64,000 bases of DNA. Origin: Arenicola marina (taxonomy: Eukaryota; Annelida; Polychaeta; Arenicolidae). The number at the start of each line of letters is the position of its first letter. The stretch's first letter is position 1. The notes under the pieces are model-generated. The model did no database searches. It saw nothing but the letters and a program-made list of their open reading frames with translations, and had not been told where the DNA came from. A program made the translations under genes and the position numbers. Location: contig OZ025255.1 of the NCBI GenBank assembly GCA_964019135.1, positions 4,898,001 through 4,962,000 of the forward strand, read 5' to 3'. Positions 1 through 64,000 of the stretch are shown piece after piece.

Positions 1-179
1 TGTGTCACCGCCCTGACGTCAGTACTACATGTACAAGGTGTCACCGCCCTGACGTCAGTACTACATGTACACTGTGTCACCGCCCTGACGTCAGTACTAT
101 ATGTACACTGTGTCACCGCCCTGACGTCAGTGCTACATGTACAATGTGTCACCGCCCTGACGTCAGACTACATGTACAA
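1..179 (+). repeat. Block 0: right end of a block, beta tail (5 units)
   Basis: The window opens inside a block at an exact unit start. The last units read R-L-L-L-M, with a TATATG unit two before the boundary, matching the beta tail of the 75- and 42-unit blocks. It has one difference not seen in the other beta tails: CAGTGCTAC near 129-136. The block then ends in the 35-bp boundary unit. Confidence 0.85.
13..22. promoter_or_regulatory. CRE-like palindrome CTGACGTCAG, one per monomer (first copy)
   Basis: The 10-bp palindrome contains TGACGTCA, the full-site consensus of CREB/ATF-type bZIP proteins. It recurs once per unit across the window. Variant units carry TGGCGTCA, TGATGTCA, TGTCGTCA or TGCCGTCA. 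Boundary units keep TGACGTCA but lose the outer C (ATGACGTCAG). Binding in vivo is not shown by the sequence, and no promoter or gene lies nearby, so a regulatory role is speculative. Confidence 0.35.
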
Positions 180-215
180 TGTGTCACCGCTATGACGTCA
201 GTACTACATGTACAA
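144..215 (+). repeat. Boundary signature (first of 40)
   Basis: The 35-bp unit at 145-179 lacks the T of CAGTACTAC. The unit at 180-215 carries CGCTATGACG. The two changes occur together in all 40 cases. The second unit starts at 180, 539, 3238, 3597, 5828, 6943, 7842, 9173, 10684, 11043, 13274, 14497, 15396, 16763, 18202, 19137, 22808, 25291, 26190, 28673, 30976, 33459, 34358, 37237, 40944, 42455, 45334, 47997, 49508, 49867, 52206, 54905, 56416, 56775, 58754, 59977, 60876, 62027, 63430 and 63861. Eleven have CGTTATG (T-type: 539, 3597, 11043, 18202, 22808, 28673, 30976, 49867, 56775, 63430, 63861); the other 29 have CGCTATG (C-type). Confidence 0.97.
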
Positions 216-538
216 TGTGTCACCGCCCTGACGTCAGTACTACATGTACAACGTGTCACCGCCCTGACGTCAGTACTACATGTACACTGTGTCACCGCCC
301 TGACGTCAGTACTACATGTACAATGTGTCACCGCCCTGACGTCAGTACTACATGTACAATGTGTCACCGCCCTGACGTCAGTACTACATGTACAAAGTGT
401 CACCGCCCTGTCGTCAGTACTACATGTACACTGTGTCACCGCCCTGACGTCAGTACTATATGTACACTGTGTCACCGCCCTGACGTCAGTACTACATGTA
501 CAATGTGTCACCGCCCTGACGTCAGACTACATGTACAA
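180..538 (+). repeat. Block 1: 10-unit block, copy 1 of 5
   Basis: Length is 359 bp, opened by a C-type boundary. Codes are M-M-T-L-M-M-K-L-L-M. The K unit (AAAGTGTCACC with CTGTCG) is diagnostic. By eye all five 10-unit blocks look the same. The next block opens with a T-type boundary, as after every 10-unit block. Confidence 0.93.
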
Positions 539-3237
539 TGTGTCACCGTTATGACGTCAGTACTACATGTACAATGTGTCACCGCCCTGACGTCAGTACT
601 ACATGTACAACGTGTCACCGCCCTGACGTCAGTACTACATGTACACTGTGTGACCGCCCTGACGTCAGTACTACATGTACAATGTGTCACCGCCCTGACG
701 TCAGTACTACATGTACAATGTGTCACCGCCCTGACGTCAGTACTGCATGTACAAGGTGTCACCGCCCTGACGTCAGTACTACATGTACACTGTGTCACCG
801 CCCTGCCGTCAGTACTACATGTACAATGTGTCACCGCCCTGACGTCAGTACTACATGTACAATGTGTCACCGCCCTGACGTCAGTACTGCATGTACAAGG
901 TGTCACCGCCCTGACGTCAGTACTACATGTACAATGTGTCACCGCCCTGACGTCAATACTACATGTACACTGTATCACCACCCTGACGTCAGTACTACAT
1001 GTACACTGTGTCACCGCCCTGACGTCAGTACTACATGTACAATGTGTCACCGCCCTGACGTCAGTACTACATGTACAAGGTGTCACCGCCCTGACGTCAG
1101 TACTACATGTACACTGTGTCACCGCCCTGACGTCAGTACTGCATGTACACTGTGTCACCGCCCTGACGTCAGTACTACATGTACACTGTGTCACCGCCCT
1201 GACGTCAGTACTACATGTACAATGTGTCACCGCCCTGACGTCAGTACTACATGTACACTCTGTCACCGCCCTGACGTCAGTACTACATGTACAATGCGTC
1301 ACCGCCCTGACGTCAGTACTACATTTACACTGTGTCACCGCCTTGACGTCAGTACAATATGTACAATGTGTCACCGCCCTGACGTCAGTACTACATGTAC
1401 ACTGTGTCACCGCCCTGACGTCAGTACTGCATGTACAACGTGTCATCGCCCCAACGTCCATACTACATGTACAAGGTGTCACCGCCCTGTCGTCAGTACT
1501 ACATGTACAAGCTGTCACCGCCCTGACGTCAGTACTACATGTACACTGTGTCACCGCCCTGGCGTCAGTACTACATGTACAAGAAGTCACCGCCCTGACG
1601 TCAGTACTACATGTACACAGTGTCATCGCCCTGACGTCAGTACTACATGTACAATGTGTCGCCGCCCTGACGTCAGTACTACATGTACACTGTGTCACCG
1701 CCCTGACGTCAGTACCACATGTACACTGTGTCACCGCCCTGACGTCAGTACTACATGTACAATGTGTCACCGCCCTGACGTCAGTACTACATGTACAATG
1801 TGTCACCGCCCTGACGTCAGTACTACATGTACACTGTGTCACCGCCCTGACGTCAGTACTACATATACAATGTGCCACCGCCCTGACGTCAGTACTACAT
1901 GTACAATGTGTCACCGCCCTGACGTCAGTACTACATGTACATTGTGTCACCGCCCTGACGTCAGTACTACATGTACACTGTGTCACCGCCCTGACGTCAG
2001 TACCACATGTACAATGTGTCACCGCCCTGACGTCAGTACTACATGTACATTGTGTCACCGCCCTGACGTCAGTACTACATGTACAATGTGTCACCGCCCT
2101 GACGTCAGTACCACATGTACACTGTGTCACCGCCCTGACGTCAGTACTACATGTACAATGTGTCACCGCCCTGACGTCAGTACTACATGTACAAGTTGTC
2201 ACCGACCTGACGTCAGTACTACATGTACACTGTGTCACCGCCCTGACGTCAGTACTACATGTACACTGTGTCACCGCCCTGGCGTCAGTACTACATGTAC
2301 ACTGTGTCACCGCCCTGGCGTCAGTACTACATGTACACTGTGTCACCGCCCTGGCGTCAGTACTACATGTACAAGTTGTCACCGACCTGACGTCAGTACT
2401 ACATGTACACTGTGTCACCGCCCTGGCGTCAGTACTACATGTACACTGTGTCACCGCCCTGGCGTCAGTACTACATGTACACTGTGTCACCGCCCTGACG
2501 TCAGTACTACATGTACACTGTGTCACAGCCCTGACGTCAGTACTACATGTACAATGTGTCACCGCCCTGACGTCAGTACTACATGTACACTGTGTCAAAG
2601 CCCTGGCGTCAGTACTACATGTACACTGTGTCACCGCCCTGACGTCAGTACTACATGTACAAGGTGTCACCGCCCCGACGTCAGTACTACATGTGCAAGA
2701 TGTCACCGCCCTGATGTCAGTACTACATGTACACTGTGTCACCGCCCTGACGTCAGTACTACATGTACAAGTTGTCACCGACCTGACGTCAGTACTACAT
2801 GTACACTGTGTCACCGCCCTGACGTCAGTACTACATGTACACTGTGTCACCGCCCTGACGTCAGTACTACATGTACACTGTGTCACCGCCCTGACGTCAG
2901 TACTACATGTACACTGTGTCACCGCCCTGACGTCAGTACTACATGTACAATGTGTCACCGCCCTGATGTCAGTACTGCATGTACACTGTGTCACCGCCCT
3001 GATGTCAGTACTACATGTACTCTGTGTCACCGCCCTGACGTCAGTACTGTATGTACACTGTGTCACCGCCCTGACGTCAGTACTACATGTACAAGGTGTC
3101 ACCGCCCTGACGTCAGTACTACATGTACACTGTGTCACCGCCCTGACGTCAGTACTATATGTACACTGTGTCACCGCCCTGACGTCAGTACTACATGTAC
3201 AATGTGTCACCGCCCTGACGTCAGACTACATGTACAA
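539..3237 (+). repeat. Block 2: 75-unit hybrid block, H1 (T-type) head, beta tail
   Basis: The head reads M-M-T-L-M-M-R-L, with TGTGTGACCG in the L unit. It follows the 62-unit block almost unit for unit to the alpha signature near 2,660-2,745. In place of the expected boundary it continues with TTGTCACCGACC (about 2,771) and a beta tail of the kind ending H2 blocks. It reads as a 62-unit block fused to 13 extra units by unequal exchange that removed a boundary. Confidence 0.85.
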
Positions 3238-3596
3238 TGTGTCACCGCTATGACGTCAGTACTACATGTACAATGTGTCACCGCCCTGACGTCAGTACTA
3301 CATGTACAACGTGTCACCGCCCTGACGTCAGTACTACATGTACACTGTGTCACCGCCCTGACGTCAGTACTACATGTACAATGTGTCACCGCCCTGACGT
3401 CAGTACTACATGTACAATGTGTCACCGCCCTGACGTCAGTACTACATGTACAAAGTGTCACCGCCCTGTCGTCAGTACTACATGTACACTGTGTCACCGC
3501 CCTGACGTCAGTACTATATGTACACTGTGTCACCGCCCTGACGTCAGTACTACATGTACAATGTGTCACCGCCCTGACGTCAGACTACATGTACAA
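3238..3596 (+). repeat. Block 3: 10-unit block, copy 2 of 5
   Basis: Same ten-unit barcode as 180-538, with the K unit near 3,450. It starts the first copy of the 6-kb third-order repeat (3,238-9,172). Confidence 0.93.
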
Positions 3597-5827
3597 TGTG
3601 TCACCGTTATGACGTCAGTACTACATGTACAATGTGTCACCGCCCTGACGTCAGTACTACATGTACAACGTGTCACCGCCCTGACGTCAGTACTACATGT
3701 ACACTGTGTGACCGCCCTGACGTCAGTACTACATGTACAATGTGTCACCGCCCTGACGTCAGTACTACATGTACAATGTGTCACCGCCCTGACGTCAGTA
3801 CTGCATGTACAAGGTGTCACCGCCCTGACGTCAGTACTACATGTACACTGTGTCACCGCCCTGCCGTCAGTACTACATGTACAATGTGTCACCGCCCTGA
3901 CGTCAGTACTACATGTACAATGTGTCACCGCCCTGACGTCAGTACTGCATGTACAAGGTGTCACCGCCCTGACGTCAGTACTACATGTACAATGTGTCAC
4001 CGCCCTGACGTCAATACTACATGTACACTGTATCACCACCCTGACGTCAGTACTACATGTACACTGTGTCACCGCCCTGACGTCAGTACTACATGTACAA
4101 TGTGTCACCGCCCTGACGTCAGTACTACATGTACAAGGTGTCACCGCCCTGACGTCAGTACTACATGTACACTGTGTCACCGCCCTGACGTCAGTACTGC
4201 ATGTACACTGTGTCACCGCCCTGACGTCAGTACTACATGTACACTGTGTCACCGCCCTGACGTCAGTACTACATGTACAATGTGTCACCGCCCTGACGTC
4301 AGTACTACATGTACACTCTGTCACCGCCCTGACGTCAGTACTACATGTACAATGCGTCACCGCCCTGACGTCAGTACTACATTTACACTGTGTCACCGCC
4401 TTGACGTCAGTACAATATGTACAATGTGTCACCGCCCTGACGTCAGTACTACATGTACACTGTGTCACCGCCCTGACGTCAGTACTGCATGTACAACGTG
4501 TCATCGCCCCAACGTCCATACTACATGTACAAGGTGTCACCGCCCTGTCGTCAGTACTACATGTACAAGCTGTCACCGCCCTGACGTCAGTACTACATGT
4601 ACACTGTGTCACCGCCCTGGCGTCAGTACTACATGTACAAGAAGTCACCGCCCTGACGTCAGTACTACATGTACACAGTGTCATCGCCCTGACGTCAGTA
4701 CTACATGTACAATGTGTCGCCGCCCTGACGTCAGTACTACATGTACACTGTGTCACCGCCCTGACGTCAGTACCACATGTACACTGTGTCACCGCCCTGA
4801 CGTCAGTACTACATGTACAATGTGTCACCGCCCTGACGTCAGTACTACATGTACAATGTGTCACCGCCCTGACGTCAGTACTACATGTACACTGTGTCAC
4901 CGCCCTGACGTCAGTACTACATATACAATGTGCCACCGCCCTGACGTCAGTACTACATGTACAATGTGTCACCGCCCTGACGTCAGTACTACATGTACAT
5001 TGTGTCACCGCCCTGACGTCAGTACTACATGTACACTGTGTCACCGCCCTGACGTCAGTACCACATGTACAATGTGTCACCGCCCTGACGTCAGTACTAC
5101 ATGTACATTGTGTCACCGCCCTGACGTCAGTACTACATGTACAATGTGTCACCGCCCTGACGTCAGTACCACATGTACACTGTGTCACCGCCCTGACGTC
5201 AGTACTACATGTACAATGTGTCACCGCCCTGACGTCAGTACTACATGTACAAGTTGTCACCGACCTGACGTCAGTACTACATGTACACTGTGTCACCGCC
5301 CTGACGTCAGTACTACATGTACACTGTGTCACCGCCCTGGCGTCAGTACTACATGTACACTGTGTCACCGCCCTGGCGTCAGTACTACATGTACACTGTG
5401 TCACCGCCCTGGCGTCAGTACTACATGTACAAGTTGTCACCGACCTGACGTCAGTACTACATGTACACTGTGTCACCGCCCTGGCGTCAGTACTACATGT
5501 ACACTGTGTCACCGCCCTGGCGTCAGTACTACATGTACACTGTGTCACCGCCCTGACGTCAGTACTACATGTACACTGTGTCACAGCCCTGACGTCAGTA
5601 CTACATGTACAATGTGTCACCGCCCTGACGTCAGTACTACATGTACACTGTGTCAAAGCCCTGGCGTCAGTACTACATGTACACTGTGTCACCGCCCTGA
5701 CGTCAGTACTACATGTACAAGGTGTCACCGCCCCGACGTCAGTACTACATGTGCAAGATGTCACCGCCCTGATGTCAGTACTACATGTACACTGTGTCAC
5801 CGCCCTGACGTCAGACTACATGTACAA
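3597..5827 (+). repeat. Block 4: 62-unit block, H1 (T-type) head, alpha tail
   Basis: This 2,231-bp block is the reference for the T-type H1 family. Landmarks in order are TGTGTGACCG, CTGCCGTC, TGTATCACCACC, AATGCGTCACC, CATTTACAC followed by CAGTACAATATG, TCATCGCCCCAACGTCCATAC, AAGAAGTCACC, several TTGTCACCGACC units, and the alpha tail. The distal half is rich in CCTGGCGTC units. An apparently equal copy lies at 11,043-13,273. Confidence 0.9.
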
Positions 5828-6942
5828 TGTGTCACCGCTATGACGTCAGTACTACATGTACAATGTGTCACCGCCCTGACGTCAGTACTACATGTACAAG
5901 GTGTCACCGCCCTGGCGTCAGTACTACATGTACAATGTGTCACCGCCCTGACGTCAGTACTACATGTACACTGTGTCACCGCCCTGACGTCAGTACTATA
6001 TGCACACTGTGTCACCGCCCTGACGTCAGTACTACATGTACAATGTGTCACCGCCCTGACGTCAGTACTGCATGTACAAGGTGTCACCGCCTTGACGTCA
6101 GTACTACATGTACACTGTGTCACCGCCCTGACGTCAGTACTACATGTACACTGTGTCACCGCCCCGACGTCAGTACTACATGTACACTGTGTCACCGCCC
6201 TGACGTCAGTACTACATGTACACTGTGTCACCGCCCTGACGTCAGTACTATATGTACACTGTGTCACCGCCCTGACGTCAGTACTACATGTACACTGTGT
6301 CACCGCCCTGACGTCAGTACTATATGTACACTGTGTCACCGCCCCGACGTCAGTACTACATGTACACTGTGTCACCGCCCTGACGTCAGTACTGCATGTA
6401 CACTGTGTCACCGCCCTGACGTCAGTACTACATGTACACTGTGTCACCGCCCCGACGTCAGTACTACATGTACACTGTGTCACCGCCCTGACGTCAGTAC
6501 TACATGTACACTGTGTCAACGCCCTGACGTCAGTACTACATGTACACTGTGTCACCGCCCTGACGTCAGTACTACATGTACAATGTGTCACCGCCCTGAC
6601 GTCAGTACTATATGCACACTGTGTCACCGCCCTGACGTCAGTACTACATGTACACTGTGTCACCGCCCTGACGTCAGTACTACATGTACACTGTGTCACC
6701 GCCCTGACGTCAGTACTACATGTACACTGTGTCACCGCCCTGACGTCAGTACTACATGTACAATGTGTCACCGCCCTGATGTCAGTACTGCATGTACACT
6801 GTGTCACCGCCCTGATGTCAGTACTACATGTACTCTGTGTCACCGCCCTGACGTCAGTACTGTATGTACACTGTGTCACCGCCCTGACGTCAGTACTACA
6901 TGTACAAGGTGTCACCGCCCTGACGTCAGACTACATGTACAA
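5828..6942 (+). repeat. Block 5: 31-unit block, H2 head, truncated beta tail
   Basis: The head is M-M-R-M-L-L-M-R, with CCTGGCG in the first R unit and GCCTTGACG in the second. A long run of L units with several TATATG units follows. It matches the 34-unit blocks at 13,274 and 58,754, but the boundary falls straight after the final R unit, so the usual L-L-M end is missing. Confidence 0.88.
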
Positions 6943-7841
6943 TGTGTCACCGCTATGACGTCAGTACTACATGTACAATGTGTCACCGCCCTGACGTCAG
7001 TACTACATGTACAACGTGTCACCGCCCTGACGTCAGTACTACATGTACACTGTGTCACCGCCCTGACGTCAGTACTACATGTACAATGTGTCACCGCCCT
7101 GACGTCAGTACTACATGTACACTGTGTCACCGCCCTGACGTCAGTACTGCATGTACACTGTGTCACCGCCCTGACGTCAGTACTGCATGTACACTGTGTC
7201 ACCGCCCTGACGTCAGTACTACATGTACACTGTGTCACCGCCCCGACGTCAGTACTACATGTACACTGTGTCACCGCCCTGACGTCAGTACTACATGTAC
7301 ACTGTGTCAACGCCCTGACGTCAGTACTACATGTACACTGTGTCACCGCCCTGACGTCAGTACTACATGTACAATGTGTCACCGCCCTGACGTCAGTACT
7401 ATATGCACACTGTGTCACCGCCCTGACGTCAGTACTACATGTACACTGTGTCACCACCCTGACGTCAGTACTACATGTACACTGTGTCACCGCCCTGACG
7501 TCAGTACTACATGTACACTGTGTCACCGCCCTGACGTCAGTACTACATGTACAATGTGTCACCGCCCTGATGTCAGTACTGCATGTACACTGTGTCAACG
7601 CCCTGATGTCAGTACTACATGCACTCTGTGTCACCGCCCTGACGTCAGTACTGTATGTACACTGTGTCACCGCCCTGACGTCAGTACTACATGTACAAGG
7701 TGCCACCGCCCTGTCGTCAGTACTACATGTACACTGTGTCACCGCCCTGACGTCAGTACTATATGTACACTGTGTCACCGCCCTGACGTCAGTACTACAT
7801 GTACAATGTGTCACCGCCCTGACGTCAGACTACATGTACAA
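6943..7841 (+). repeat. Block 6: 25-unit block, copy 1 of 5, beta-prime tail
   Basis: The first five units are those of the 10-unit block (M-M-T-L-M). The rest matches the right part of the H2 family and ends with AAGGTGCCACC and CTGTCG. It differs from the other four copies by an L where they have R near 7,150 and by CACCACCCTG near 7,453. GTCAACGCCCTGATG near 7,597 places it with the copies at 14,497 and 59,977. Confidence 0.9.
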
Positions 7842-9172
7842 TGTGTCACCGCTATGACGTCAGTACTACATGTACAATGTGTCACCGCCCTGACGTCAGT
7901 ACTACATGTACAACGTGTCACCGCCCTGACGTCAGTACTACATGTACACTGTGTCACCGCCCTGACGTCAGTACTACATGTACAATGTGTCACCGCCCTG
8001 ACGTCAGTCCTACATGTACAATGTGTCACCGCCCTGACGTCAGTCCTACATGTACAATGTGTCACCGCCCTGACGTCAGTACTGCATGTACAAGGTGTCA
8101 CCGCCCTGACGTCAGTACTACATGTACACTGTGTCACCGCCCTGACGTCAGTACTACATGTACAATGTGTCACCGCCCTGACGTCAGTACTACATGTACA
8201 ATGTGTCACCGCCCTGACGTCAGTACTGCATGTACAAGGTGTCACCGTCCTGACGTCAGTACTACATGTACAATGTGTCACCGCCCTGACGTCAATACTA
8301 CATGTACACTGTATCACCACCCTGACGTCAGTACTACATGTACACTGTGTCACCGCCCTGACGTCAGTACTACATGTACAATGTGTCACCGCCCTGACGT
8401 CAGTACTACATGTACAAGGTGTCACCGCCCTGACGTCAGTACTACATGTACACTGTGTCACCGCCCTGACGTCAGTACTGCATGTACACTGTGTCACCGC
8501 CCTGACGTCAGTACTACATGTACACTGTGTCACCGCCCTGACGTCAGTACTACATGTACAATGTGTCACCGCCCTGACGTCAGTACTACATGTACACACT
8601 GTCACCGCCCTGACGTCAGTACTACATGTACAATGCGTCACCGCCCTGACGTCAGTACTACATTTACACTGTGTCACCGCCTTAACGTCAGTACAATATG
8701 TACAATGTGTCACCGCCCTGACGTCAGTACTACATGTACACTGTGTCACCGCCCTGACGTCAGTACTGCATGTACAACGTGTCATCGCCCCAACGTCAGT
8801 ACTACATGTACAAGGTGTCACCGCCCTGTCGTCAGTACTACATGTACAAGCTGTCACCGCCCTGACGTCAGTACTACATGTACACTGTGTCACCGCCCTG
8901 GCGTCAGTACTACATGTACAAGAAGTCACCGCCCTGACGTCAGTACTACATGCACACAGTGTCATCGCCCTGACGTCAGTACTAAATGTACAATGTGTCG
9001 CCGCCCTGACGTCAGTACTACATGTACACTGTGTCACCGCCCTGACGTCAGTACTACATGTACAAGGTGTCACCGCCCCGACGTCAGTACTACATGTGCA
9101 AGATGTCACCGCCCTGATGTCAGTACTACATGTACACTGTGTCACCGCCCTGACGTCAGACTACATGTACAA
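7842..9172 (+). repeat. Block 7: 37-unit block, H1 (SP) head, alpha tail
   Basis: It carries the SP markers: CAGTCCTAC (two copies in a row near 8,006 and 8,042, where relatives have one), CACACTGTCACC near 8,596, GCCTTAACG near 8,681 and TACTAAATG near 8,980. It stops at the alpha signature, without the long right half seen in the 69-, 80- and 102-unit relatives. Confidence 0.88.
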
Positions 9173-10683
9173 TGTGTCACCGCTATGACGTCAGTACTAC
9201 ATGTACAATGTGTCACCGCCCTGACGTCAGTACTACATGTACAAGGTGTCACCGCCCTGGCGTCAGTACTACATGTACAATGTGTCACCGCCCTGACGTC
9301 AGTACTACATGTACAATGTGTCACCGCCCTGACGTCAGTACTACATGTACAATGTGTCACCGCCCTGACGTCAGTACTGCATGTACAAGGTGTCACCGCC
9401 TTGACGTCAGTACTACATGTACACTGTGTCACCGCCCTGACGTCAGTACTACATGTACACTGTGTCACCGCCCCGACGTCAGTACTACATGTACACTGTG
9501 TCACCGCCCTGACGTCAGTACTACATGTACACTGTGTCACCGCCCTGACGTCAGTACTATATGTACACTGTGTCACCGCCCTGACGTCAGTACTACATGT
9601 ACACTGTGTCACCGCCCTGACGTCAATACTATATGTACACTGTGTCACCGCCCGGACGTCAGTACTACATGTACACTGTGTCACCGCCCTGACGTCAGTA
9701 CTGCATGTACACTGTGTCACCGCCCTGACGTCAGTACTACATGTACACTGTGTCACCGCCCCGACGTCAGTACTACATGTACACTGTGTCACCGCCCTGA
9801 CGTCAGTACTACATGTACACTGTGTCAACGCCCTGACGTCAGTACTACATGTACACTGTGTCACCGCCCTGACGTCAGTACTACATGTACAATGTGTCAC
9901 CGCCCTGACGTCAGTACTATATGCACACTGTGTCACCGCCCCGACGTCAGTACTACATGTACACTGTGTCACCGCCCTGACGTCAGTACTACATGTACAC
10001 TGTGTCACCGCCCCGACGTCGGTACTACATGTACACTGTGTCACCGCCCTGACGTCAGTACTACATGTACACTGTGTCACCGCCCTGACGTCAGTACTAC
10101 ATGTACACTGTGTCACCGCCCTGACGTCAGTACTACATGTACACTGTGTCACCGCCCCGACGTCAGTACTACATGTACACTGTGTCACCGCCCTGACGTC
10201 AGTACTACATGTACACTGTGTCACCGCCCCGACGTCAGTACTACATGTACACTGTGTCACCGCCCTGACGTCAGTACTACATGTACACTGTGTCACCGCC
10301 CTGACGTCAGTACTACATGTACACTGTGTCACCGCCCTGACGTCAGTACTACATGTACACTGTGTCACCGCCCTGACGTCAGTACTACATGTACAATGTG
10401 TCACCGCCCTGATGTCAGTACTGCATGTACACTGTGTCACCGCCCTGATGTCAGTACTACATGTACTCTGTGTCACCGCCCTGACGTCAGTACTGTATGT
10501 ACACTGTGTCACCGCCCTGACGTCAGTACTACATGTACAAGGTGTCACCGCCCTGACGTCAGTACTACATGTACACTGTGTCACCGCCCTGACGTCAGTA
10601 CTATATGTACACTGTGTCACCGCCCTGACGTCAGTACTACATGTACAATGTGTCACCGCCCTGACGTCAGACTACATGTACAA
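9173..10683 (+). repeat. Block 8: 42-unit block, H2 head, beta tail, copy 1 of 4
   Basis: The head is M-M-R-M-M-M-R, differing from the 34-unit form by M-M where that has L-L. Diagnostic units are CAATACTATATG near 9,625, GCCCGGACG near 9,652 and GTCGGTACTAC near 10,019. It has a longer L-unit run than the 34-unit form. Further copies start at 40,944, 47,997 and 54,905. Confidence 0.9.
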
Positions 10684-11042
10684 TGTGTCACCGCTATGAC
10701 GTCAGTACTACATGTACAATGTGTCACCGCCCTGACGTCAGTACTACATGTACAACGTGTCACCGCCCTGACGTCAGTACTACATGTACACTGTGTCACC
10801 GCCCTGACGTCAGTACTACATGTACAATGTGTCACCGCCCTGACGTCAGTACTACATGTACAATGTGTCACCGCCCTGACGTCAGTACTACATGTACAAA
10901 GTGTCACCGCCCTGTCGTCAGTACTACATGTACACTGTGTCACCGCCCTGACGTCAGTACTATATGTACACTGTGTCACCGCCCTGACGTCAGTACTACA
11001 TGTACAATGTGTCACCGCCCTGACGTCAGACTACATGTACAA
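10684..11042 (+). repeat. Block 9: 10-unit block, copy 3 of 5
   Basis: Same ten-unit barcode as 180-538. It opens the second and most complete copy of the third-order repeat (10,684-16,762). Confidence 0.93.
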
Positions 11043-13273
11043 TGTGTCACCGTTATGACGTCAGTACTACATGTACAATGTGTCACCGCCCTGACGTCAG
11101 TACTACATGTACAACGTGTCACCGCCCTGACGTCAGTACTACATGTACACTGTGTGACCGCCCTGACGTCAGTACTACATGTACAATGTGTCACCGCCCT
11201 GACGTCAGTACTACATGTACAATGTGTCACCGCCCTGACGTCAGTACTGCATGTACAAGGTGTCACCGCCCTGACGTCAGTACTACATGTACACTGTGTC
11301 ACCGCCCTGCCGTCAGTACTACATGTACAATGTGTCACCGCCCTGACGTCAGTACTACATGTACAATGTGTCACCGCCCTGACGTCAGTACTGCATGTAC
11401 AAGGTGTCACCGCCCTGACGTCAGTACTACATGTACAATGTGTCACCGCCCTGACGTCAATACTACATGTACACTGTATCACCACCCTGACGTCAGTACT
11501 ACATGTACACTGTGTCACCGCCCTGACGTCAGTACTACATGTACAATGTGTCACCGCCCTGACGTCAGTACTACATGTACAAGGTGTCACCGCCCTGACG
11601 TCAGTACTACATGTACACTGTGTCACCGCCCTGACGTCAGTACTGCATGTACACTGTGTCACCGCCCTGACGTCAGTACTACATGTACACTGTGTCACCG
11701 CCCTGACGTCAGTACTACATGTACAATGTGTCACCGCCCTGACGTCAGTACTACATGTACACTCTGTCACCGCCCTGACGTCAGTACTACATGTACAATG
11801 CGTCACCGCCCTGACGTCAGTACTACATTTACACTGTGTCACCGCCTTGACGTCAGTACAATATGTACAATGTGTCACCGCCCTGACGTCAGTACTACAT
11901 GTACACTGTGTCACCGCCCTGACGTCAGTACTGCATGTACAACGTGTCATCGCCCCAACGTCCATACTACATGTACAAGGTATCACCGCCCTGTCGTCAG
12001 TACTACATGTACAAGCTGTCACCGCCCTGACGTCAGTACTACATGTACACTGTGTCACCGCCCTGGCGTCAGTACTACATGTACAAGAAGTCACCGCCCT
12101 GACGTCAGTACTACATGTACACAGTGTCATCGCCCTGACGTCAGTACTACATGTACAATGTGTCGCCGCCCTGACGTCAGTACTACATGTACACTGTGTC
12201 ACCGCCCTGACGTCAGTACCACATGTACACTGTGTCACCGCCCTGACGTCAGTACTACATGTACAATGTGTCACCGCCCTGACGTCAGTACTACATGTAC
12301 AATGTGTCACCGCCCTGACGTCAGTACTACATGTACACTGTGTCACCGCCCTGACGTCAGTACTACATATACAATGTGCCACCGCCCTGACGTCAGTACT
12401 ACATGTACAATGTGTCACCGCCCTGACGTCAGTACTACATGTACATTGTGTCACCGCCCTGACGTCAGTACTACATGTACACTGTGTCACCGCCCTGACG
12501 TCAGTACCACATGTACAATGTGTCACCGCCCTGACGTCAGTACTACATGTACATTGTGTCACCGCCCTGACGTCAGTACTACATGTACAATGTGTCACCG
12601 CCCTGACGTCAGTACCACATGTACACTGTGTCACCGCCCTGACGTCAGTACTACATGTACAATGTGTCACCGCCCTGACGTCAGTACTACATGTACAAGT
12701 TGTCACCGACCTGACGTCAGTACTACATGTACACTGTGTCACCGCCCTGACGTCAGTACTACATGTACACTGTGTCACCGCCCTGGCGTCAGTACTACAT
12801 GTACACTGTGTCACCGCCCTGGCGTCAGTACTACATGTACACTGTGTCACCGCCCTGGCGTCAGTACTACATGTACAAGTTGTCACCGACCTGACGTCAG
12901 TACTACATGTACACTGTGTCACCGCCCTGGCGTCAGTACTACATGTACACTGTGTCACCGCCCTGGCGTCAGTACTACATGTACACTGTGTCACCGCCCT
13001 GACGTCAGTACTACATGTACACTGTGTCACAGCCCTGACGTCAGTACTACATGTACAATGTGTCACCGCCCTGACGTCAGTACTACATGTACACTGTGTC
13101 AAAGCCCTGGCGTCAGTACTACATGTACACTGTGTCACCGCCCTGACGTCAGTACTACATGTACAAGGTGTCACCGCCCCGACGTCAGTACTACATGTGC
13201 AAGATGTCACCGCCCTGATGTCAGTACTACATGTACACTGTGTCACCGCCCTGACGTCAGACTACATGTACAA
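11043..13273 (+). repeat. Block 10: 62-unit block, H1 (T-type) head, alpha tail
   Basis: It matches 3,597-5,827 unit for unit. The one clear difference I noticed is AAGGTATCACC near 11,978, where the other copy has AAGGTGTCACC. Near-identity over 2.2 kb at 7.4 kb distance implies a recent block-scale copying event. Confidence 0.9.
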
Positions 13274-52205: not shown

Positions 52206-54904
52206 TGTGTCACCGCTATGACGTCAGTACTACATGTACAATGTGTCACCGCCCTGACGTCAGTACTACATGTACACTGTGTCACCGCCCTGACGTCAGT
52301 ACTACATGTACACTGTGTCACCGCCCTGACGTCAGTACTACATGTACAAGTTGTCACCGACCTGACGTCAGTACTACATGTACACTGTGTCACCGCCCTG
52401 ACGTCAGTACTACATGTACAATGTGTCACAGCCCTGACGTCAGTACTACATGTACAAGGTGTCACCGCCCTGACGTCAGTACTACATGTACACTGTGTCA
52501 CCGCCCTGACGTCAGTACTACATGTACAATGTGTCACAGCCCTGACGTCAGTACTACATGTACAAGGTGTCACCGCCCTGACGTCAGTACTACATGTACA
52601 CTGTGTCACCGCCCTGGCGTCAGTACTACATGTACACTGTGTCACCGCCCTGACGTCAGTACTACATGTACACTGTGTCACCGCCCTGACGTCAGTACTA
52701 CATGTACAAGTTGTCACCGACCTGACGTCAGTACTACATGTACACTGTGTCACCGCCCTGACGTCAGTACTACATGTACAATGTGTCACAGCCCTGACGT
52801 CAGTACTACATGTACAAGTTGTCACCGACCTGACGTCAGTACTACATGTACACTGTGTCACGGCCCTGACGTCAGTACTACATGTACACTGTGTCACCGC
52901 CCTGACGTCAGTACTACATGTACACTGTGTCACCGCCCTGACGTCAGTACTACATGTACACTGTGTCACCGCCTGGACGTCAGTACTACATGTACACTGT
53001 GTCACCGCCCTGGCGTCAGTACTACATGTACAATGTGTCACCGCCCTGGCGTCAGTACTACATGTACACTGTGTCACCGCCCTGACGTCAGTACTACATG
53101 TACACTGTGTCACCGCCCTGACGTCAGTACTACATGTACAAGTTGTCACCGACCTGACGTCAGTACTACATGTACACTGTGTCACCGCCCTGACGTCAGT
53201 ACTACATGTACAATGTGTCACAGCCCTGACGTCAGTACCACATGTACAAGGTGTCACCGCCCTGACGTCAGTACTACATGTACACTGTGTCACCGCCCTG
53301 ACGTCAGTACTACATGTACAATGTGTCACAGCCCTGACGTCAGTACTACATGTACAAGGTGTCACCGCCCTGACGTCAGTACTACATGTACACTGTGTCA
53401 CCGCCCTGGCGTCAGTACTACATGTACACTGTGTCACCGCCCTGACGTCAGTACTACATGTACACTGTGTCACCGCCTGGACGTCAGTACTACATGTACA
53501 CTGTGTCACCGCCCTGGCGTCAGTACTACATGTACAATGTGTCACCGCCCTGGCGTCAGTACTACATGTACACTGTGTCACCGCCCTGGCGTCAGTACTA
53601 CATGTACACTGTGTCACCGCCCTGACGTCAGTACTACATGTACACTGTGTCACCGCCCTGACGTCAGTACTACATGTACACTGTGTCACCGCCCTGGCGT
53701 CAGTACTACATGTACACTGTGTCACCGCCCTGGCGTCAGTACTACATGTACAAGTTGTCACCGACCTGACGTCAGTACTACATGTACACTGTGTCACCGC
53801 CCTGGCGTCAGTACTACATGTACACTGTGTCACCGCCCTGGCGTCAGTACAACATGTACACTGTGTCACCGCCCTGGCGTCAGTACTACATGTACAAGTT
53901 GTCACCGACCTGACGTCAGTACTGCATGTACACTGTGTCACCGCCCTGACGTCAGTACTACATGTACAATGTGTCACCGCCCTGACGTCAGTACTACATG
54001 TACACTGTGTCACAGCCCTGACGTCAGTACTACATGTACAAGGTGTCACCGCCCCGACGTCAGTACTACATGTGCAAGATGTCACCGCCCTGACGTCAGT
54101 ACTACATGTACACTGTGTCACCGCCCTGGCGTCAGTACTACATGTACACTGTGTCACCGCCCTGACGTCAGTACTACATGTACACTGTGTCACCGCCCTG
54201 ACGTCAGTACTACATGTACACTGTGTCACCGCCCTGACGTCAGTACTACATGTACACTGTATCACCGCCCTGACGTCAGTACTACATGTACACTGTGTCA
54301 CCGCCCTGACGTCAGTACTACATGTACACTGTGTCACCGCCCTGGCGTCAGTACTACATGTACACTGTGTCACCGCCCTGACGTCAGTACTACATATACA
54401 AGGTGTCACAGCCCTGGCGTCAGTACTACATGTACACTGTGTCACCGCCCTGACGTCAGTACTACATGTACAACGTGTCACCGCCCTGACGTCAGTACTA
54501 TATGCACACTGTGTCACCGCCCTGACGTCAGTACTACATGTACACTGTGTCACCGCCCTGGCGTCAGTACTACATGTACACTGTGTCACCGCCCTGGCGT
54601 CAGTACTACATGTACACTGTGTCACCGCCCTGACGTCAGTACTACATGTACACTGTGTCACAGCCCTGACGTCAGTACTACATGTACAATGTGTCACCGC
54701 CCTGACGTCAGTACTACATGTACACTGTGTCAAAGCCCTGGCGTCAGTACTACATGTACACTGTGTCACCGCCCTGACGTCAGTACTACATGTACAAGGT
54801 GTCACCGCCCCGACGTCAGTACTACATGTGCAAGATGTCACCGCCCTGATGTCAGTACTACATGTACACTGTGTCACCGCCCTGACGTCAGACTACATGT
54901 ACAA
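52206..54904 (+). repeat. Block 31: 75-unit block, H3 head, alpha tail
   Basis: It is the counterpart of 45,334-47,996 with one extra plain L unit near 54,200, just before the GTATCACCG unit. CAGTACCACATGTACAAGG near 53,235 is private. Unit number equals block 2 but the content is unrelated. Confidence 0.88.
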
Positions 54905-56415
54905 TGTGTCACCGCTATGACGTCAGTACTACATGTACAATGTGTCAACGCCCTGACGTCAGTACTACATGTACAAGGTGTCACCGCCCTGGCGTCAGTA
55001 CTACATGTACAATGTGTCACCGCCCTGACGTCAGTACTACATGTACAATGTGTCACCGCCCTGACGTCAGTACTACATGTACAATGTGTCACCGCCCTGA
55101 CGTCAGTACTGCATGTACAAGGTGTCACCGCCTTGACGTCAGTACTACATGTACACTGTGTCACCGCCCTGACGTCAGTACTACATGTACACTGTGTCAC
55201 CGCCCCGACGTCAGTACTACATGTACACTGTGTCACCGCCCTGACGTCAGTACTACATGTACACTGTGTCACCGCCCTGACGTCAGTACTATATGTACAC
55301 TGTGTCACCGCCCTGACGTCAGTACTACATGTACACTGTGTCACCGCCCTGACGTCAATATTATATGTACACTGTGTCACCGCCCGGACGTCAGTACTAC
55401 ATGTACACTGTGTCACCGCCCTGACGTCAGTACTGCATGTACACTGTGTCACCGCCCTGACGTCAGTACTACATGTACACTGTGTCACCGCCCCGACGTC
55501 AGTACTACATGTACACTGTGTCACCGCCCTGACGTCAGTACTACATGTACACTGTGTCAACGCCCTGACGTCAGTACTACATGTACACTGTGTCACCGCC
55601 CTGACGTCAGTACTACATGTACAATGTGTCACCGCCCTGACGTCAGTACTATATGCACACTGTGTCACCGCCCCGACGTCAGTACTACATGTACACTGTG
55701 TCACCGCCCTGACGTCAGTACTACATGTACACTGTGTCACCGCCCCGACGTCGGTACTACATGTACACTGTGTCACCGCCCTGACGTCAGTACTACATGT
55801 ACACTGTGTCACCGCCCTGACGTCAGTACTACATGTACACTGTGTCACCGCCCTGACGTCAGTACTACATGTACACTGTGTCACCGCCCCGACGTCAGTA
55901 CTACATGTACACTGTGTCACCGCCCTGACGTCAGTACTACATGTACACTGTGTCACCGCCCCGACGTCAGTACTACATGTACACTGTGTCACCGCCCTGA
56001 CGTCAGTACTACATGTACACTGTGTCACCGCCCTGACGTCAGTACTACATGTACACTGTGTCACCGCCCTGACGTCAGTACTACATGTACACTGTGTCAC
56101 CGCCCTGACGTCAGTACTACATGTACAATGTGTCACCGCCCTGATGTCAGTACTGCATGTACACTGTGTCACCGCCCTGATGTCAGTACTACATGTACTC
56201 TGTGTCACCGCCCTGACGTCAGTACTGTATGTACACTGTGTCACCGCCCTGACGTCAGTACTACATGTACAAGGTGTCACCGCCCTGACGTCAGTACTAC
56301 ATGTACACTGTGTCACCGCCCTGACGTCAGTACTATATGTACACTGTGTCACCGCCCTGACGTCAGTACTACATGTACAATGTGTCACCGCCCTGACGTC
56401 AGACTACATGTACAA
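54905..56415 (+). repeat. Block 32: 42-unit block, copy 4 of 4
   Basis: It has the 42-unit layout with private GTCAACGCC in its second unit (near 54,945) and CAATATTATATG near 55,358, where the other copies have CAATACTATATG. Confidence 0.91.
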
Positions 56416-56774
56416 TGTGTCACCGCTATGACGTCAGTACTACATGTACAATGTGTCACCGCCCTGACGTCAGTACTACATGTACAACGTGTCACCGCCC
56501 TGACGTCAGTACTACATGTACACTGTGTCACCGCCCTGACGTCAGTACTACATGTACAATGTGTCACCGCCCTGACGTCAGTACTACATGTACAATGTGT
56601 CACCGCCCTGACGTCAGTACTACATGTACAAAGTGTCACCGCCCTGTCGTCAGTACTACATGTACACTGTGTCACCGCCCTGACGTCAGTACTATATGTA
56701 CACTGTGTCACCGCCCTGACGTCAGTACTACATGTACAATGTGTCACCGCCCTGACGTCAGACTACATGTACAA
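56416..56774 (+). repeat. Block 33: 10-unit block, copy 5 of 5
   Basis: Same barcode as the other four. It opens the third, shortened copy of the third-order repeat (56,416-62,026). Confidence 0.93.
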
Positions 56775-58753
56775 TGTGTCACCGTTATGACGTCAGTACT
56801 ACATGTACAATGTGTCACCGCCCTGACGTCAGTACTACATGTACAACGTGTCACCGCCCTGACGTCAGTACTACATGTACACTGTGTGACCGCCCTGACG
56901 TCAGTACTACATGTACAATGTGTCACCGCCCTGACGTCAGTACTACATGTACAATGTGTCACCGCCCTGACGTCAGTACTGCATGTACAAGGTGTCACCG
57001 CCCTGACGTCAGTACTACATGTACACTGTGTCACCGCCCTGCCGTCAGTACTACATGTACAATGTGTCACCGCCCTGACGTCAGTACTACATGTACAATG
57101 TGTCACCGCCCTGACGTCAGTACTGCATGTACAAGGTGTCACCGCCCTGACGTCAGTACTACATGTACAATGTGTCACCGCCCTGACGTCAATACTACAT
57201 GTACACTGTATCACCACCCTGACGTCAGTACTACATGTACACTGTGTCACCGCCCTGACGTCAGTACTACATGTACAATGTGTCACCGCCCTGACGTCAG
57301 TACTACATGTACAAGGTGTCACCGCCCTGACGTCAGTACTACATGTACACTGTGTCACCGCCCTGACGTCAGTACTGCATGTACACTGTGTCACCGCCCT
57401 GACGTCAGTACTACATGTACACTGTGTCACCGCCCTGACGTCAGTACTACATGTACAATGTGTCACCGCCCTGACGTCAGTACTACATGTACACTCTGTC
57501 ACCGCCCTGACGTCAGTACTACATGTACAATGCGTCACCGCCCTGACGTCAGTACTACATTTACACTGTGTCACCGCCTTGACGTCAGTACAATATGTAC
57601 AATGTGTCACCGCCCTGACGTCAGTACTACATGTACACTGTGTCACCGCCCTGACGTCAGTACTGCATGTACAACGTGTCATCGCCCCAACGTCCATACT
57701 ACATGTACAAGGTGTCACCGCCCTGTCGTCAGTACTACATGTACAAGCTGTCACCGCCCTGACGTCAGTACTACATGTACACTGTGTCACCGCCCTGGCG
57801 TCAGTACTACATGTACAAGAAGTCACCGCCCTGACGTCAGTACTACATGTACACAGTGTCATCGCCCTGACGTCAGTACTACATGTACAATGTGTCGCCG
57901 CCCTGACGTCAGTACTACATGTACACTGTGTCACCGCCCTGACGTCAGTACCACATGTACACTGTGTCACCGCCCTGACGTCAGTACTACATGTACAATG
58001 TGTCACCGCCCTGACGTCAGTACTACATGTACAATGTGTCACCGCCCTGACGTCAGTACTACATGTACACTGTGTCACCGCCCTGACGTCAGTACTACAT
58101 ATACAATGTGCCACCGCCCTGACGTCAGTACTACATGTACAATGTGTCACCGCCCTGACGTCAGTACTACATGTACATTGTGTCACCGCCCTGACGTCAG
58201 TACTACATGTACACTGTGTCACCGCCCTGACGTCAGTACCACATGTACAATGTGTCACCGCCCTGACGTCAGTACTACATGTACATTGTGTCACCGCCCT
58301 GACGTCAGTACTACATGTACAATGTGTCACCGCCCTGACGTCAGTACCACATGTACACTGTGTCACCGCCCTGACGTCAGTACTACATGTACAATGTGTC
58401 ACCGCCCTGACGTCAGTACTACATGTACAAGTTGTCACCGACCTGACGTCAGTACTACATGTACACTGTGTCACCGCCCTGACGTCAGTACTACATGTAC
58501 ACTGTGTCACCGCCCTGGCGTCAGTACTACATGTACACTGTGTCACCGCCCTGGCGTCAGTACTACATGTACACTGTGTCACCGCCCTGGCGTCAGTACT
58601 ACATGTACACTGTGTCACCGCCCTGACGTCAGTACTACATGTACAAGGTGTCACCGCCCCGACGTCAGTACTACATGTGCAAGATGTCACCGCCCTGATG
58701 TCAGTACTACATGTACACTGTGTCACCGCCCTGACGTCAGACTACATGTACAA
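56775..58753 (+). repeat. Block 34: 55-unit block, H1 (T-type) head, alpha tail
   Basis: It follows the 62-unit block closely up to the CCTGGCG units near 58,500-58,590, then passes directly to a plain L unit and the alpha tail. Seven units are missing, including one TTGTCACCGACC unit, GTCACAGCC and GTCAAAGCC. An in-register deletion between similar CCTGGCG units explains it. Confidence 0.89.
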
Positions 58754-59976
58754 TGTGTCACCGCTATGACGTCAGTACTACATGTACAATGTGTCACCGC
58801 CCTGACGTCAGTACTACATGTACAAGGTGTCACCGCCCTGGCGTCAGTACTACATGTACAATGTGTCACCGCCCTGACGTCAGTACTACATGTACACTGT
58901 GTCACCGCCCTGACGTCAGTACTATATGCACACTGTGTCACCGCCCTGACGTCAGTACTACATGTACAATGTGTCACCGCCCTGACGTCAGTACTGCATG
59001 TACAAGGTGTCACCGCCTTGACGTCAGTACTACATGTACACTGTGTCACCGCCCTGACGTCAGTACTACATGTACACTGTGTCACCGCCCCGACGTCAGT
59101 ACTACATGTACACTGTGTCACCGCCCTGACGTCAGTACTACATGTACACTGTGTCACCGCCCTGACGTCAGTACTATATGTACACTGTGTCACCGCCCTG
59201 ACGTCAGTACTACATGTACACTGTGTCACCGCCCTGACGTCAGTACTATATGTACACTGTGTCACCGCCCCGACGTCAGTACTACATGTACACTGTGTCA
59301 CCGCCCTGACGTCAGTACTGCATGTACACTGTGTCACCGCCCTGACGTCAGTACTACATGTACACTGTGTCACCGCCCCGACGTCAGTACTACATGTACA
59401 CTGTGTCACCGCCCTGACGTCAGTACTACATGTACACTGTGTCAACGCCCTGACGTCAGTACTACATGTACACTGTGTCACCGCCCTGACGTCAGTACTA
59501 CATGTACAATGTGTCACCGCCCTGACGTCAGTACTATATGCACACTGTGTCACCGCCCTGACGTCAGTACTACATGTACACTGTGTCACCGCCCTGACGT
59601 CAGTACTACATGTACACTGTGTCACCGCCCTGACGTCAGTACTACATGTACACTGTGTCACCGCCCTGACGTCAGTACTACATGTACAATGTGTCACCGC
59701 CCTGATGTCAGTACTGCATGTACACTGTGTCACCGCCCTGATGTCAGTACTACATGTACTCTGTGTCACCGCCCTGACGTCAGTACTGTATGTACACTGT
59801 GTCACCGCCCTGACGTCAGTACTACATGTACAAGGTGTCACCGCCCTGACGTCAGTACTACATGTACACTGTGTCACCGCCCTGACGTCAGTACTATATG
59901 TACACTGTGTCACCGCCCTGACGTCAGTACTACATGTACAATGTGTCACCGCCCTGACGTCAGACTACATGTACAA
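58754..59976 (+). repeat. Block 35: 34-unit block, H2 head, beta tail, copy 2
   Basis: Same unit order as 13,274-14,496, about 45 kb away, and it again lies between an alpha tail and a 25-unit block. Confidence 0.91.
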
Positions 59977-60875
59977 TGTGTCACCGCTATGACGTCAGTA
60001 CTACATGTACAATGTGTCACCGCCCTGACGTCAGTACTACATGTACAACGTGTCACCGCCCTGACGTCAGTACTACATGTACACTGTGTCACCGCCCTGA
60101 CGTCAGTACTACATGTACAATGTGTCACCGCCCTGACGTCAGTACTACATGTACACTGTGTCACCGCCCTGACGTCAGTACTGCATGTACAAGGTGTCAC
60201 CGCCCTGACGTCAGTACTGCATGTACACTGTGTCACCGCCCTGACGTCAGTACTACATGTACACTGTGTCACCGCCCCGACGTCAGTACTACATGTACAC
60301 TGTGTCACCGCCCTGACGTCAGTACTACATGTACACTGTGTCAACGCCCTGACGTCAGTACTACATGTACACTGTGTCACCGCCCTGACGTCAGTACTAC
60401 ATGTACAATGTGTCACCGCCCTGACGTCAGTACTATATGCACACTGTGTCACCGCCCTGACGTCAGTACTACATGTACACTGTGTCACCGCCCTGACGTC
60501 AGTACTACATGTACACTGTGTCACCGCCCTGACGTCAGTACTACATGTACACTGTGTCACCGCCCTGACGTCAGTACTACATGTACAATGTGTCACCGCC
60601 CTGATGTCAGTACTGCATGTACACTGTGTCAACGCCCTGATGTCAGTACTACATGCACTCTGTGTCACCGCCCTGACGTCAGTACTGTATGTACACTGTG
60701 TCACCGCCCTGACGTCAGTACTACATGTACAAGGTGCCACCGCCCTGTCGTCAGTACTACATGTACACTGTGTCACCGCCCTGACGTCAGTACTATATGT
60801 ACACTGTGTCACCGCCCTGACGTCAGTACTACATGTACAATGTGTCACCGCCCTGACGTCAGACTACATGTACAA
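59977..60875 (+). repeat. Block 36: 25-unit block, copy 5 of 5
   Basis: It matches 14,497, including GTCAACGCCCTGATG near 60,630, so it groups with the copies in the other third-order repeats rather than with those in the 69-unit region. Confidence 0.92.
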
Positions 60876-62026
60876 TGTGTCACCGCTATGACGTCAGTAC
60901 TACATGTACAATGTGTCACCGCCCTGACGTCAGTACTACATGTACAACGTGTCACCGCCCTGACGTCAGTACTACATGTACACTGTGTCACCGCCCTGAC
61001 GTCAGTACTACATGTACAATGTGTCACCGCCCTGACGTCAGTCCTACATGTACAATGTGTCACCGCCCTGACGTCAGTACTGCATGTACAAGGTGTCACC
61101 GCCCTGACGTCAGTACTACATGTACACTGTGTCACCGCCCTGACGTCAGTACTACATGTACAATGTGTCACCGCCCTGACGTCAGTACTACATGTACAAT
61201 GTGTCACCGCCCTGACGTCAGTACTGCATGTACAAGGTGTCACCGTCCTGACGTCAGTACTACATGTACAATGTGTCACCGCCCTGACGTCAATACTACA
61301 TGTACACTGTATCACCACCCTGACGTCAGTACTACATGTACACTGTGTCACCGCCCTGACGTCAGTACTACATGTACAATGTGTCACCGCCCTGACGTCA
61401 GTACTACATGTACAAGGTGTCACCGCCCTGACGTCAGTACTACATGTACACTGTGTCACCGCCCTGACGTCAGTACTGCATGTACACTGTGTCACCGCCC
61501 TGACGTCAGTACTACATGTACACTGTGTCACCGCCCTGACGTCAGTACTACATGTACAATGTGTCACCGCCCTGACGTCAGTACTACATGTACACACTGT
61601 CACCGCCCTGACGTCAGTACTACATGTACAATGCGTCACCGCCCTGACGTCAGTACTACATTTACACTGTGTCACCGCCTTAACGTCAGTACAATATGTA
61701 CAATGTGTCACCGCCCTGACGTCAGTACTACATGTACACTGTGTCACCGCCCTGACGTCAGTACTGCATGTACAACGTGTCATCGCCCCAACGTCAGTAC
61801 TACATGTACAAGGTGTCACCGCCCTGTCGTCAGTACTACATGTACAAGCTGTCACCGCCCTGACGTCAGTACTACATGTACACTGTGTCACCGCCCTGGC
61901 GTCAGTACTACATGTACAAGAAGTCACCGCCCTGACGTCAGTACTACATGTACACAGTGTCACCGCCCTGACGTCAGTACTACATGTACAATGTGTCACC
62001 GCCCTGACGTCAGACTACATGTACAA
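60876..62026 (+). repeat. Block 37: 32-unit block, H1 (SP) head, short end
   Basis: It has the SP head with CAGTCCTAC near 61,041, CACACTGTC near 61,594 and GCCTTAACG near 61,680. It stops two units after the AAGAAGTCACC marker (near 61,920) with a plain M unit before the boundary. It is the shortest of the SP-headed blocks. Confidence 0.88.
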
Positions 62027-63429
62027 TGTGTCACCGCTATGACGTCAGTACTACATGTACAATGTGTCACCGCCCTGACGTCAGTACCACATGTACAACG
62101 TGTCACCGCCCTGACGTCAGTACTACATGTACACTGTGTCACCGCCCTGACGTCAGTACTACATGTACAATGTGTCACCGCCCTGACGTCAGTCCTACAT
62201 GTACAATGTGTCACCGCCCTGACGTCAGTACTGCATGTACAAGGTGTCACCGCCCTGACGTCAGTACTACATGTACACTGTGTCACCGCCCTGACGTCAG
62301 TACTACATGTACAATGTGTCACCGCCCTGACGTCAGTACTACATGTACAATGTGTCACCGCCCTGACGTCAGTACTGCATGTACAAGGTGTCACCGTCCT
62401 GACGTCAGTACTACATGTACAATGTGTCACCGCCCTGACGTCAATACTACATGTACACTGTATCACCACCCTGACGTCAGTACTACATGTACACTGTGTC
62501 ACCGCCCTGACGTCAGTACTACATGTACAATGTGTCACCGCCCTGACGTCAGTACTACATGTACAAGGTGTCACCGCCCTGACGTCAGTACTACATGTAC
62601 ACTGTGTCACCGCCCTGACGTCAGTACTGCATGTACACTGTGTCACCGCCCTGACGTCAGTACTACATGTACACTGTGTCACCGCCCTGACGTCAGTACT
62701 ACATGTACAATGTGTCACCGCCCTGACGTCAGTACTACATGTACACACTGTCACCGCCCTGACGTCAGTACTACATGTACAATGCGTCACCGCCCTGACG
62801 TCAGTACTACATTTACACTGTGTCACCGCCTTAACGTCAGTACAATATGTACAATGTGTCACCGCCCTGACGTCAGTACTACATGTACACTGTGTCACCG
62901 CCCTGACGTCAGTACTGCATGTACAACGTGTCATCGCCCCAACGTCAGTACTACATGTACAAGGTGTCACCGCCCTGTCGTCAGTACTACATGTACAAGC
63001 TGTCACCGCCCTGACGTCAGTACTACATGTACACTGTGTCACCGCCCTGGCGTCAGTACTACATGTACAAGAAGTCACCGCCCTGACGTCAGTACTACAT
63101 GTACACAGTGTCATCGCCCTGACGTCAGTACTAAATGTACAATGTGTCGCCGCCCTGACGTCAGTACTACATGTACACTGTGTCACCGCCCTGACGTCAG
63201 TACCACATGTACACTGTGTCACCGCCCTGACGTCAGTACTACATGTACAATGTGTCACCGCCCTGACGTCAGTACTACATGTACACTGTGTCACCGCCCT
63301 GACGTCAGTACTACATGTACAATGTGTCACCGCCCTGACGTCAGTACTACATGTACAATGTGTCACCGCCCTGACGTCAGTACTACATGTACAATGTGTC
63401 ACTGCCCTGACGTCAGACTACATGTACAA
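62027..63429 (+). repeat. Block 38: 39-unit block, H1 (SP) head, gamma tail
   Basis: It is close to 16,763-18,201, with the same M-M-M end. It has CAGTACCACATG in its second unit (near 62,085) and GTCACTGCCC just before the boundary (near 63,401), both private here. Confidence 0.88.
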
Positions 63430-63860
63430 TGTGTCACCGTTATGACGTCAGTACTACATGTACAATGTGTCACCGCCCTGACGTCAGTACTACATGTACA
63501 ACGTGTCACCGCCCTGACGTCAGTACTACATGTACACTGTGTCACCGCCCTGACGTCAGTACTACATGTACAATGTGTCACCGCCCTGACGTCAGTACTA
63601 TATGCACACTGTGTCACCGCCCCGACGTCAGTACTACATGTACACTGTGTCACCGCCCTGACGTCAGTACTACATGTACAATGTGTCACCGCCCTGACGT
63701 CAGTACTACATGTACACTGTGTCACCGCCCTGACGTCAGTACTACATGTACAATGTGTCACCGCCCTGACGTCAGTACTACATGTACAATGTGTCACCGC
63801 CCTGACGTCAGTACTACATGTACAATGTGTCACCGCCCTGACGTCAGACTACATGTACAA
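63430..63860 (+). repeat. Block 39: 12-unit block, H1 head, gamma tail
   Basis: Codes are M-M-T-L-M-L-L-M-L-M-M-M, with a TATATGCACAC unit and a CCCCGACG unit. It looks like a 10/25-type head joined to the gamma tail of the block before it. No other 12-unit block occurs. Confidence 0.88.
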
Positions 63861-64000
63861 TGTGTCACCGTTATGACGTCAGTACTACATGTACAATGTG
63901 TCACCGCCCTGACGTCAGTACTACATGTACAACGTGTCACCGCCCTGACGTCAGTACTACATGTACACTGTGTCACCGCCCTGACGTCAGTACTACATGT
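63861..64000 (+). repeat. Block 40: start of an H1 (T-type) block, cut by window edge
   Basis: Three full units and 32 bases of a fourth, read M-M-T-L, after a T-type boundary. The array clearly continues past the window. Confidence 0.9.

Follow-up and report, generated by a model that had tools for sequence, protein, structure and literature searches.

Spacing of 35-bp units in a 36-bp tandem array of Arenicola marina: most likely the trace of one inherited deletion

Introduction

How can a tandem array accumulate many substitutions, and hardly change the length of its unit? The question is raised by a 64,000-nucleotide stretch of the Arenicola marina genome (hereafter, the window), filled by repeats of 36 bp. 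The initial annotation of the window noted that boundaries between blocks of repeats are separated by 36n-1 bp, and suggested that either exchange is strictly in-register and purges indels, or the length of the unit is under constraint. The observation is exact, and its meaning is most likely for the greater part ordinary. In the reading favored here, which may be given a probability of roughly 0.78, the window belongs to a non-coding satellite in which blocks are exchanged homologously, a single deletion has been inherited and the input of indels is low, with no need for a special device keeping the length of the unit.

Results

Unit lengths and the marker unit

According to TRF the window is a single array (1-64000; period 36, 1778.9 copies, 93% matches, 0% indels), with the consensus TGTGTCACCGCCCTGACGTCAGTACTACATGTACAC; no strand is assigned to the array, nor to the repeat features described below. 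Its complete units number 1,778 and fall into 107 types, 33 of which were seen once. Units were called by a cyclic Viterbi alignment, which permits the insertion or deletion of every base and allows any unit length. The complete units measure 36 bp (1,738 units) or 35 bp (40 units), the cut last one aside, and no other length was found. All of the 40 gaps correspond to the loss of a T at consensus column 23. The 35-bp units span positions 145..63860, and start at 145, 504, 3203, 3562, 5793, 6908, 7807, 9138, 10649, 11008, 13239, 14462, 15361, 16728, 18167, 19102, 22773, 25256, 26155, 28638, 30941, 33424, 34323, 37202, 40909, 42420, 45299, 47962, 49473, 49832, 52171, 54870, 56381, 56740, 58719, 59942, 60841, 61992, 63395 and 63826. 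The 39 distances between them all equal 36n-1 (359 to 3,707 bp; n totals 1,770), as had been stated in the initial annotation, and its further statement that the deleted T is the only net length change in the 64 kb is likewise reproduced. The 39 distances are no set of independent coincidences: the rule holds because all remaining units are 36 bp long, and the same base is absent from every boundary unit.

Sensitivity to gap costs was assessed at four settings, in two of which gaps are cheaper than mismatches. At these two, 147 net-zero pairs of insertions and deletions replace clustered substitutions, and 131 of the pairs fall at columns 35-36-1-2-3; at the cheapest one even single substitutions are turned into gap pairs, and the resulting 4,610 gaps are uninformative. 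Clustered substitutions at the variable ends of the units are the simpler reading, since the pairs are unneeded at ordinary gap costs. Units of other lengths and compensating pairs had both been named beforehand as observations contrary to a locked register: the former do not occur, the latter emerge when gaps are made cheap. Columns 36, 1 and 2 form the variable joint of the units, where several adjacent bases are altered together. Columns 18, 19, 29 and 30 are invariant in 1,778 of 1,778 units; 2.9 such columns are expected by chance from the allele counts.

The 35-bp units are strikingly uniform. Thirty-eight of 40 are identical, and the other two carry one extra substitution each. Every 35-bp unit is followed by a derived unit carrying A at column 13 (C12T C13A in 29 instances, C11T C12T C13A in 11; the first is at 180..215), and this derived unit is found directly after a 35-bp unit in all 40 instances and nowhere else in the window. 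As the unique derived neighbor recurs each time, and the copy parse described below leads to one event at five of six settings, the 40 short units should not be counted as so many separate observations. Most likely, the T23 deletion arose once and reached 40 places by ordinary block duplication, the boundaries being one inherited marker. The main form of the deletion ranks ninth among the 107 unit types by copy number, and thus the deletion amplifies like a substitution.

Block duplication and junctions

The history of the array was approached with a parse that derives every unit from a preceding one by copying, with costs for mismatches and for jumps, run in both directions and at three jump costs. 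The six settings yielded 60 to 101 junctions and 240 to 375 substitutions, and assigned 1,304 to 1,416 of 1,777 units to copied segments 20 or more units long. The T23 deletion was gained once at five settings, and twice at the sixth. At 1 to 5 places the T was regained relative to the chosen template, which counts against a single inherited deletion, and is read here as denoting missed junctions or conversion. As examples of block duplication, the 106 units at 10253..14065 are an in-phase copy, with 1 mismatch, of a block 207 units upstream, and the 93 units at 58611..61955 are identical (0 mismatches) to a block located 1,264 units upstream. The array is built as a patchwork of blocks copied in phase. 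There is therefore one indel allele to weigh against 61 substitution alleles (31 transitions, 30 transversions). The contrast initially drawn between dozens of substitutions and one indel in 64 kb was overstated, because most of the window has been copied from itself and its 1,778 units amount to 107 types.

All junctions keep the 36-bp phase, because the marker is the only unit whose length departs from 36 bp. Homologous exchange of near-identical repeats keeps phase, as random end-joining would not. The possibility that the 35-bp unit is a hotspot of exchange, or a barrier to it, found no support. Junctions lying no more than 3 units from a 35-bp unit were 14/101, 13/81 and 10/60 in left-to-right parses and 17/93, 13/78 and 13/61 in right-to-left parses, about the background rate, since such positions make up 15.7% of the total.

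Scarcity of indels

Whether one indel allele is surprisingly few depends on the expected ratio of substitutions to indels. Eukaryotic ratios have been reported to range from 3.1 to 18.1 (PMC8691059). Ratios quoted in PMC5389722 are 9.89 for primates and 19.61 for bacteria, and the same source describes indels in Plasmodium falciparum as about ten times commoner than substitutions. A neutral simulation was run on an array of 1,778 units undergoing in-phase block duplication and deletion, with column weights derived from the copy parse. Of the 1,920 samples for each ratio (20 time points in each of 96 runs, not independent of each other), those whose count of substitution alleles lay between 55 and 67 were kept. 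At most one indel allele was seen in 0 of 940 samples at 3.1:1, 0 of 960 at 6.6:1 and 0 of 929 at 10:1; the probability was 0.012 at 18.1:1 (n=938), 0.115 at 33:1 (n=928), 0.395 at 67:1 (n=908) and 0.866 at 200:1 (n=917). When samples were also limited to 90-125 unit types, the figures were 0 of 232 at 18.1:1, 0.061 (n=213) at 33:1 and 0.276 (n=174) at 67:1. Uniform columns gave 0 of 69 at 18.1:1, 0.108 (n=37) at 33:1 and 0.385 (n=39) at 67:1, in agreement with the weighted run. The fit is imperfect, because divergence is higher in the samples kept than in the real array (about 0.09 vs 0.039).

A second estimate, which is not independent of the allele count, was obtained from long copies, defined as segments of at least 20 units at an offset above 20 in the left-to-right parse at the middle jump cost. 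Their 1,313 units harbor 70 substitutions and 0 indels, and the probability of finding no indel is 0.0009 at 10:1, 0.021 at 18:1, 0.12 at 33:1 and 0.35 at 67:1. The deficit of indels with respect to average ratios is thus real and moderate, and vanishes if no more than about 1 indel arises for every 30 substitutions. The earlier claim that indels are scarce survives in that 1 allele against 61 is below what average ratios predict, but the count is not unusual for ratios between 33:1 and 67:1 (P=0.12 to 0.40). The favored reading requires an input of indels about two-fold or more under the lowest average among the reported ratios.

Average indel rates include many events at homopolymers and short repeats, and the window is poor in both. 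It contains 1 homopolymer run of 5, 88 of 4 and 1,603 of 3, and 16 starts (overlaps counted) of dinucleotide tracts with at least 3 repeats. The rate of indels in such a homopolymer-poor unit is plausibly low enough.

Discussion

By several features the array qualifies as a satellite. Monomers are arranged head-to-tail over many kilobases, throughout the 64 kb; blocks of 93 to 106 units, irregular in length, are more alike (0 to 1 mismatch) than adjacent monomers; and, on sequence grounds, the array is non-coding, as the frame shifts at each boundary and synonymous changes are not significantly enriched in the open frames. In satellite higher-order arrays under concerted evolution, as described in PMC8122249, multi-monomer blocks are amplified together, and turnover occurs by unequal exchange or conversion. 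The window resembles the arrays described there in the co-amplification of monomer blocks, and in that adjacent monomers differ more than repeated blocks. It differs from them because its unit is short (36 bp), its blocks are irregular, with 10 to 103 units between markers and no fixed higher-order unit, and a single indel allele is present. Likeness to another class of repeats should also be mentioned. Human minisatellites such as MS32 have a constant unit length and substitution variants, and are mapped as variant-repeat codes, though their arrays are much shorter. By description, the array may be likened to these minisatellites in the constancy of unit length combined with substitution variants.

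How the array was formed may be envisaged as follows. The window would be part of a large non-coding satellite array, which would grow, shrink and be rearranged via homologous exchange, either unequal crossing-over or copying repair, involving blocks of few to more than 100 units. Exchange of this kind would maintain the 36-bp phase automatically. A one-base deletion would have occurred once, in an ancestral unit beside a C12T/C13A unit, and block duplication would have carried the pair to 40 places. All boundaries would then be one inherited marker, from which the 36n-1 spacing would follow. Other indels would be few because the 64 kb share a shallow ancestry, and hence few independent mutation events, and because the unit is almost devoid of homopolymers and short-repeat tracts, the usual sites of indels. 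If this ordinary scenario is correct, the array is a natural record of satellite turnover, in which block duplications over 64 kb can be traced by a one-base deletion acting as a barcode. Should the deficit of indels survive the analysis of raw reads and a locus-specific indel rate, the array could help to find out whether indels are filtered from satellites by homologous exchange.

An active process is the first alternative to be weighed, and an unlikely one. The machinery of exchange or mismatch repair might reject out-of-register heteroduplexes, or a bound protein, or the spacing of chromatin, might select units of 36 bp. The deficit of indels relative to average ratios is in line with this hypothesis, as is the uneven distribution of changes among columns within long copies (P=0.0036). 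Moreover, the consensus unit holds four palindromes in columns 13-35, CTGACGTCAG (perfect), AGTACT, TACATGTA and TGTACA, which could be protein sites, and exceed expectation in summed length (P=0.0004, 20,000 shuffles) and in number (P=0.0018). Perfect TGACGTCA octamers, which correspond to the CRE-type bZIP site, occur 1,439 times in the window. T23, the base lost from the 35-bp units, lies at the center of the AGTACT palindrome, as one of its two middle bases. Both purging and constraint, however, predict a poor fate for an indel-bearing unit, and are disfavored because the deletion type is the ninth commonest. In addition, junctions are not depleted beside the 35-bp unit, and the number of invariant columns is close to that expected by chance. 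Of the two proposals made in the initial annotation, in-register exchange is thus supported by the phase of all junctions, but neither purging nor a constraint on the unit length is supported, given the spread of the sole indel to 40 copies, the rank of its main form, and the near-background frequency of junctions beside it. That the 36 bp are actively kept, by heteroduplex rejection or spaced protein sites, and that the T23 deletion escaped this control as a rare exception and was amplified later, appears a shade less probable still. A constraint driven by hairpins was rejected, since single-stranded DNA folds no better than shuffles (z 0.41 for one unit, -0.28 and -0.16 for two units on both strands).

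Alternatively, the regularity could be produced by assembly or polishing, with small indels smoothed from the consensus, or copies collapsed or misjoined. The window is an assembled sequence, and blocks of 3 kb or longer that are almost identical are indeed hard to assemble. Yet, the consensus still shows the T deletion in 40 copies and includes 33 unit types present once, and was therefore plausibly obtained without flattening rare variants; this speaks for rare substitutions at least. An artefact is accordingly improbable.

Far less credible is the hypothesis that the array is a protein-coding repeat of 12 residues per unit, from which frame-breaking indels have been removed. In its favor, the unit length of 36 is divisible by 3, the + strand contains ORFs that begin with ATG and reach 2,056 codons, and the Pfam profile DUF7486 (PF24307) matches one + frame, above its cut-off, in the translated blocks 42455-45262, 3597-5756 and 19137-20936 (E-values 3.8e-18 to 2e-31). 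The 40 deletions, however, change the reading frame at intervals of 10 to 103 units. A long + ORF as a rule opens at one boundary and closes shortly beyond the second boundary after it, and each - ORF covers a single block. No significant enrichment of synonymous alleles was found in the three open frames (Fisher P 1.0, 0.12 and 0.25), and DUF7486 also matches an antisense frame (3599-5755, - strand; 3.7e-24). Protein coding was rejected on these grounds. A nominal synonymous excess (P=0.014), found in one closed antisense frame out of six frames tested, is taken as noise.

The match to DUF7486 deserves some comment, as the profile recognizes the translated array in either orientation. Tandem copies of the bare consensus score 15.6 and 26.6 bits, below the cut-off of 27; none of five shuffled and repeated 12-mers is matched, and 0/14 control genomes had a match, which is no proof of absence. 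DUF6192 matches the other + frame below its cut-off, two NCBIfam models score far below theirs, and no PDB sequence matched the translated array. E-values of shuffled repeats go as low as 8.3e-9, without passing the cut-off, and a frame of the consensus exceeds the DUF6011 cut-off (27.9 vs 26.6 bits). Because these score too, E-values of such periodic proteins are inflated, and the DUF7486 lead is therefore weakened. DUF7486 may itself rest on translated satellite sequence, or on translations of a similar repeat.

Neither strings of the unit nor DUF7486 were found mentioned in the literature searched, and the 64-kb window contains no known RNA or tRNA. Exact pieces of the unit of 19-31 bases had no match in the viral and prokaryote collections viral_contigs and genome_contigs, nor did blastn match one 2,401-base sample of the window to phages or plasmids, or one 2,808-base sample to E. 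coli genomes. These negative results, together with the size of the array, favor a eukaryotic satellite as the likeliest source. Translated searches were made with one 360-residue sample of one frame. They found nothing in phages, five stretches fitting the peptide pattern in viral_contigs, none of which was confirmed, and 20 plasmid records, none of which reached 60% identity and which are attributed to chance similarity between repetitive proteins. Among the 20 is a Streptomyces plasmid hosting two 36-bp repeat arrays of its own (L001:1498-2068 and 2991-3597). Their consensus differs from that of the window; the arrays show 91-95% matches and 0-1% indels, and overlap annotated hypothetical proteins.
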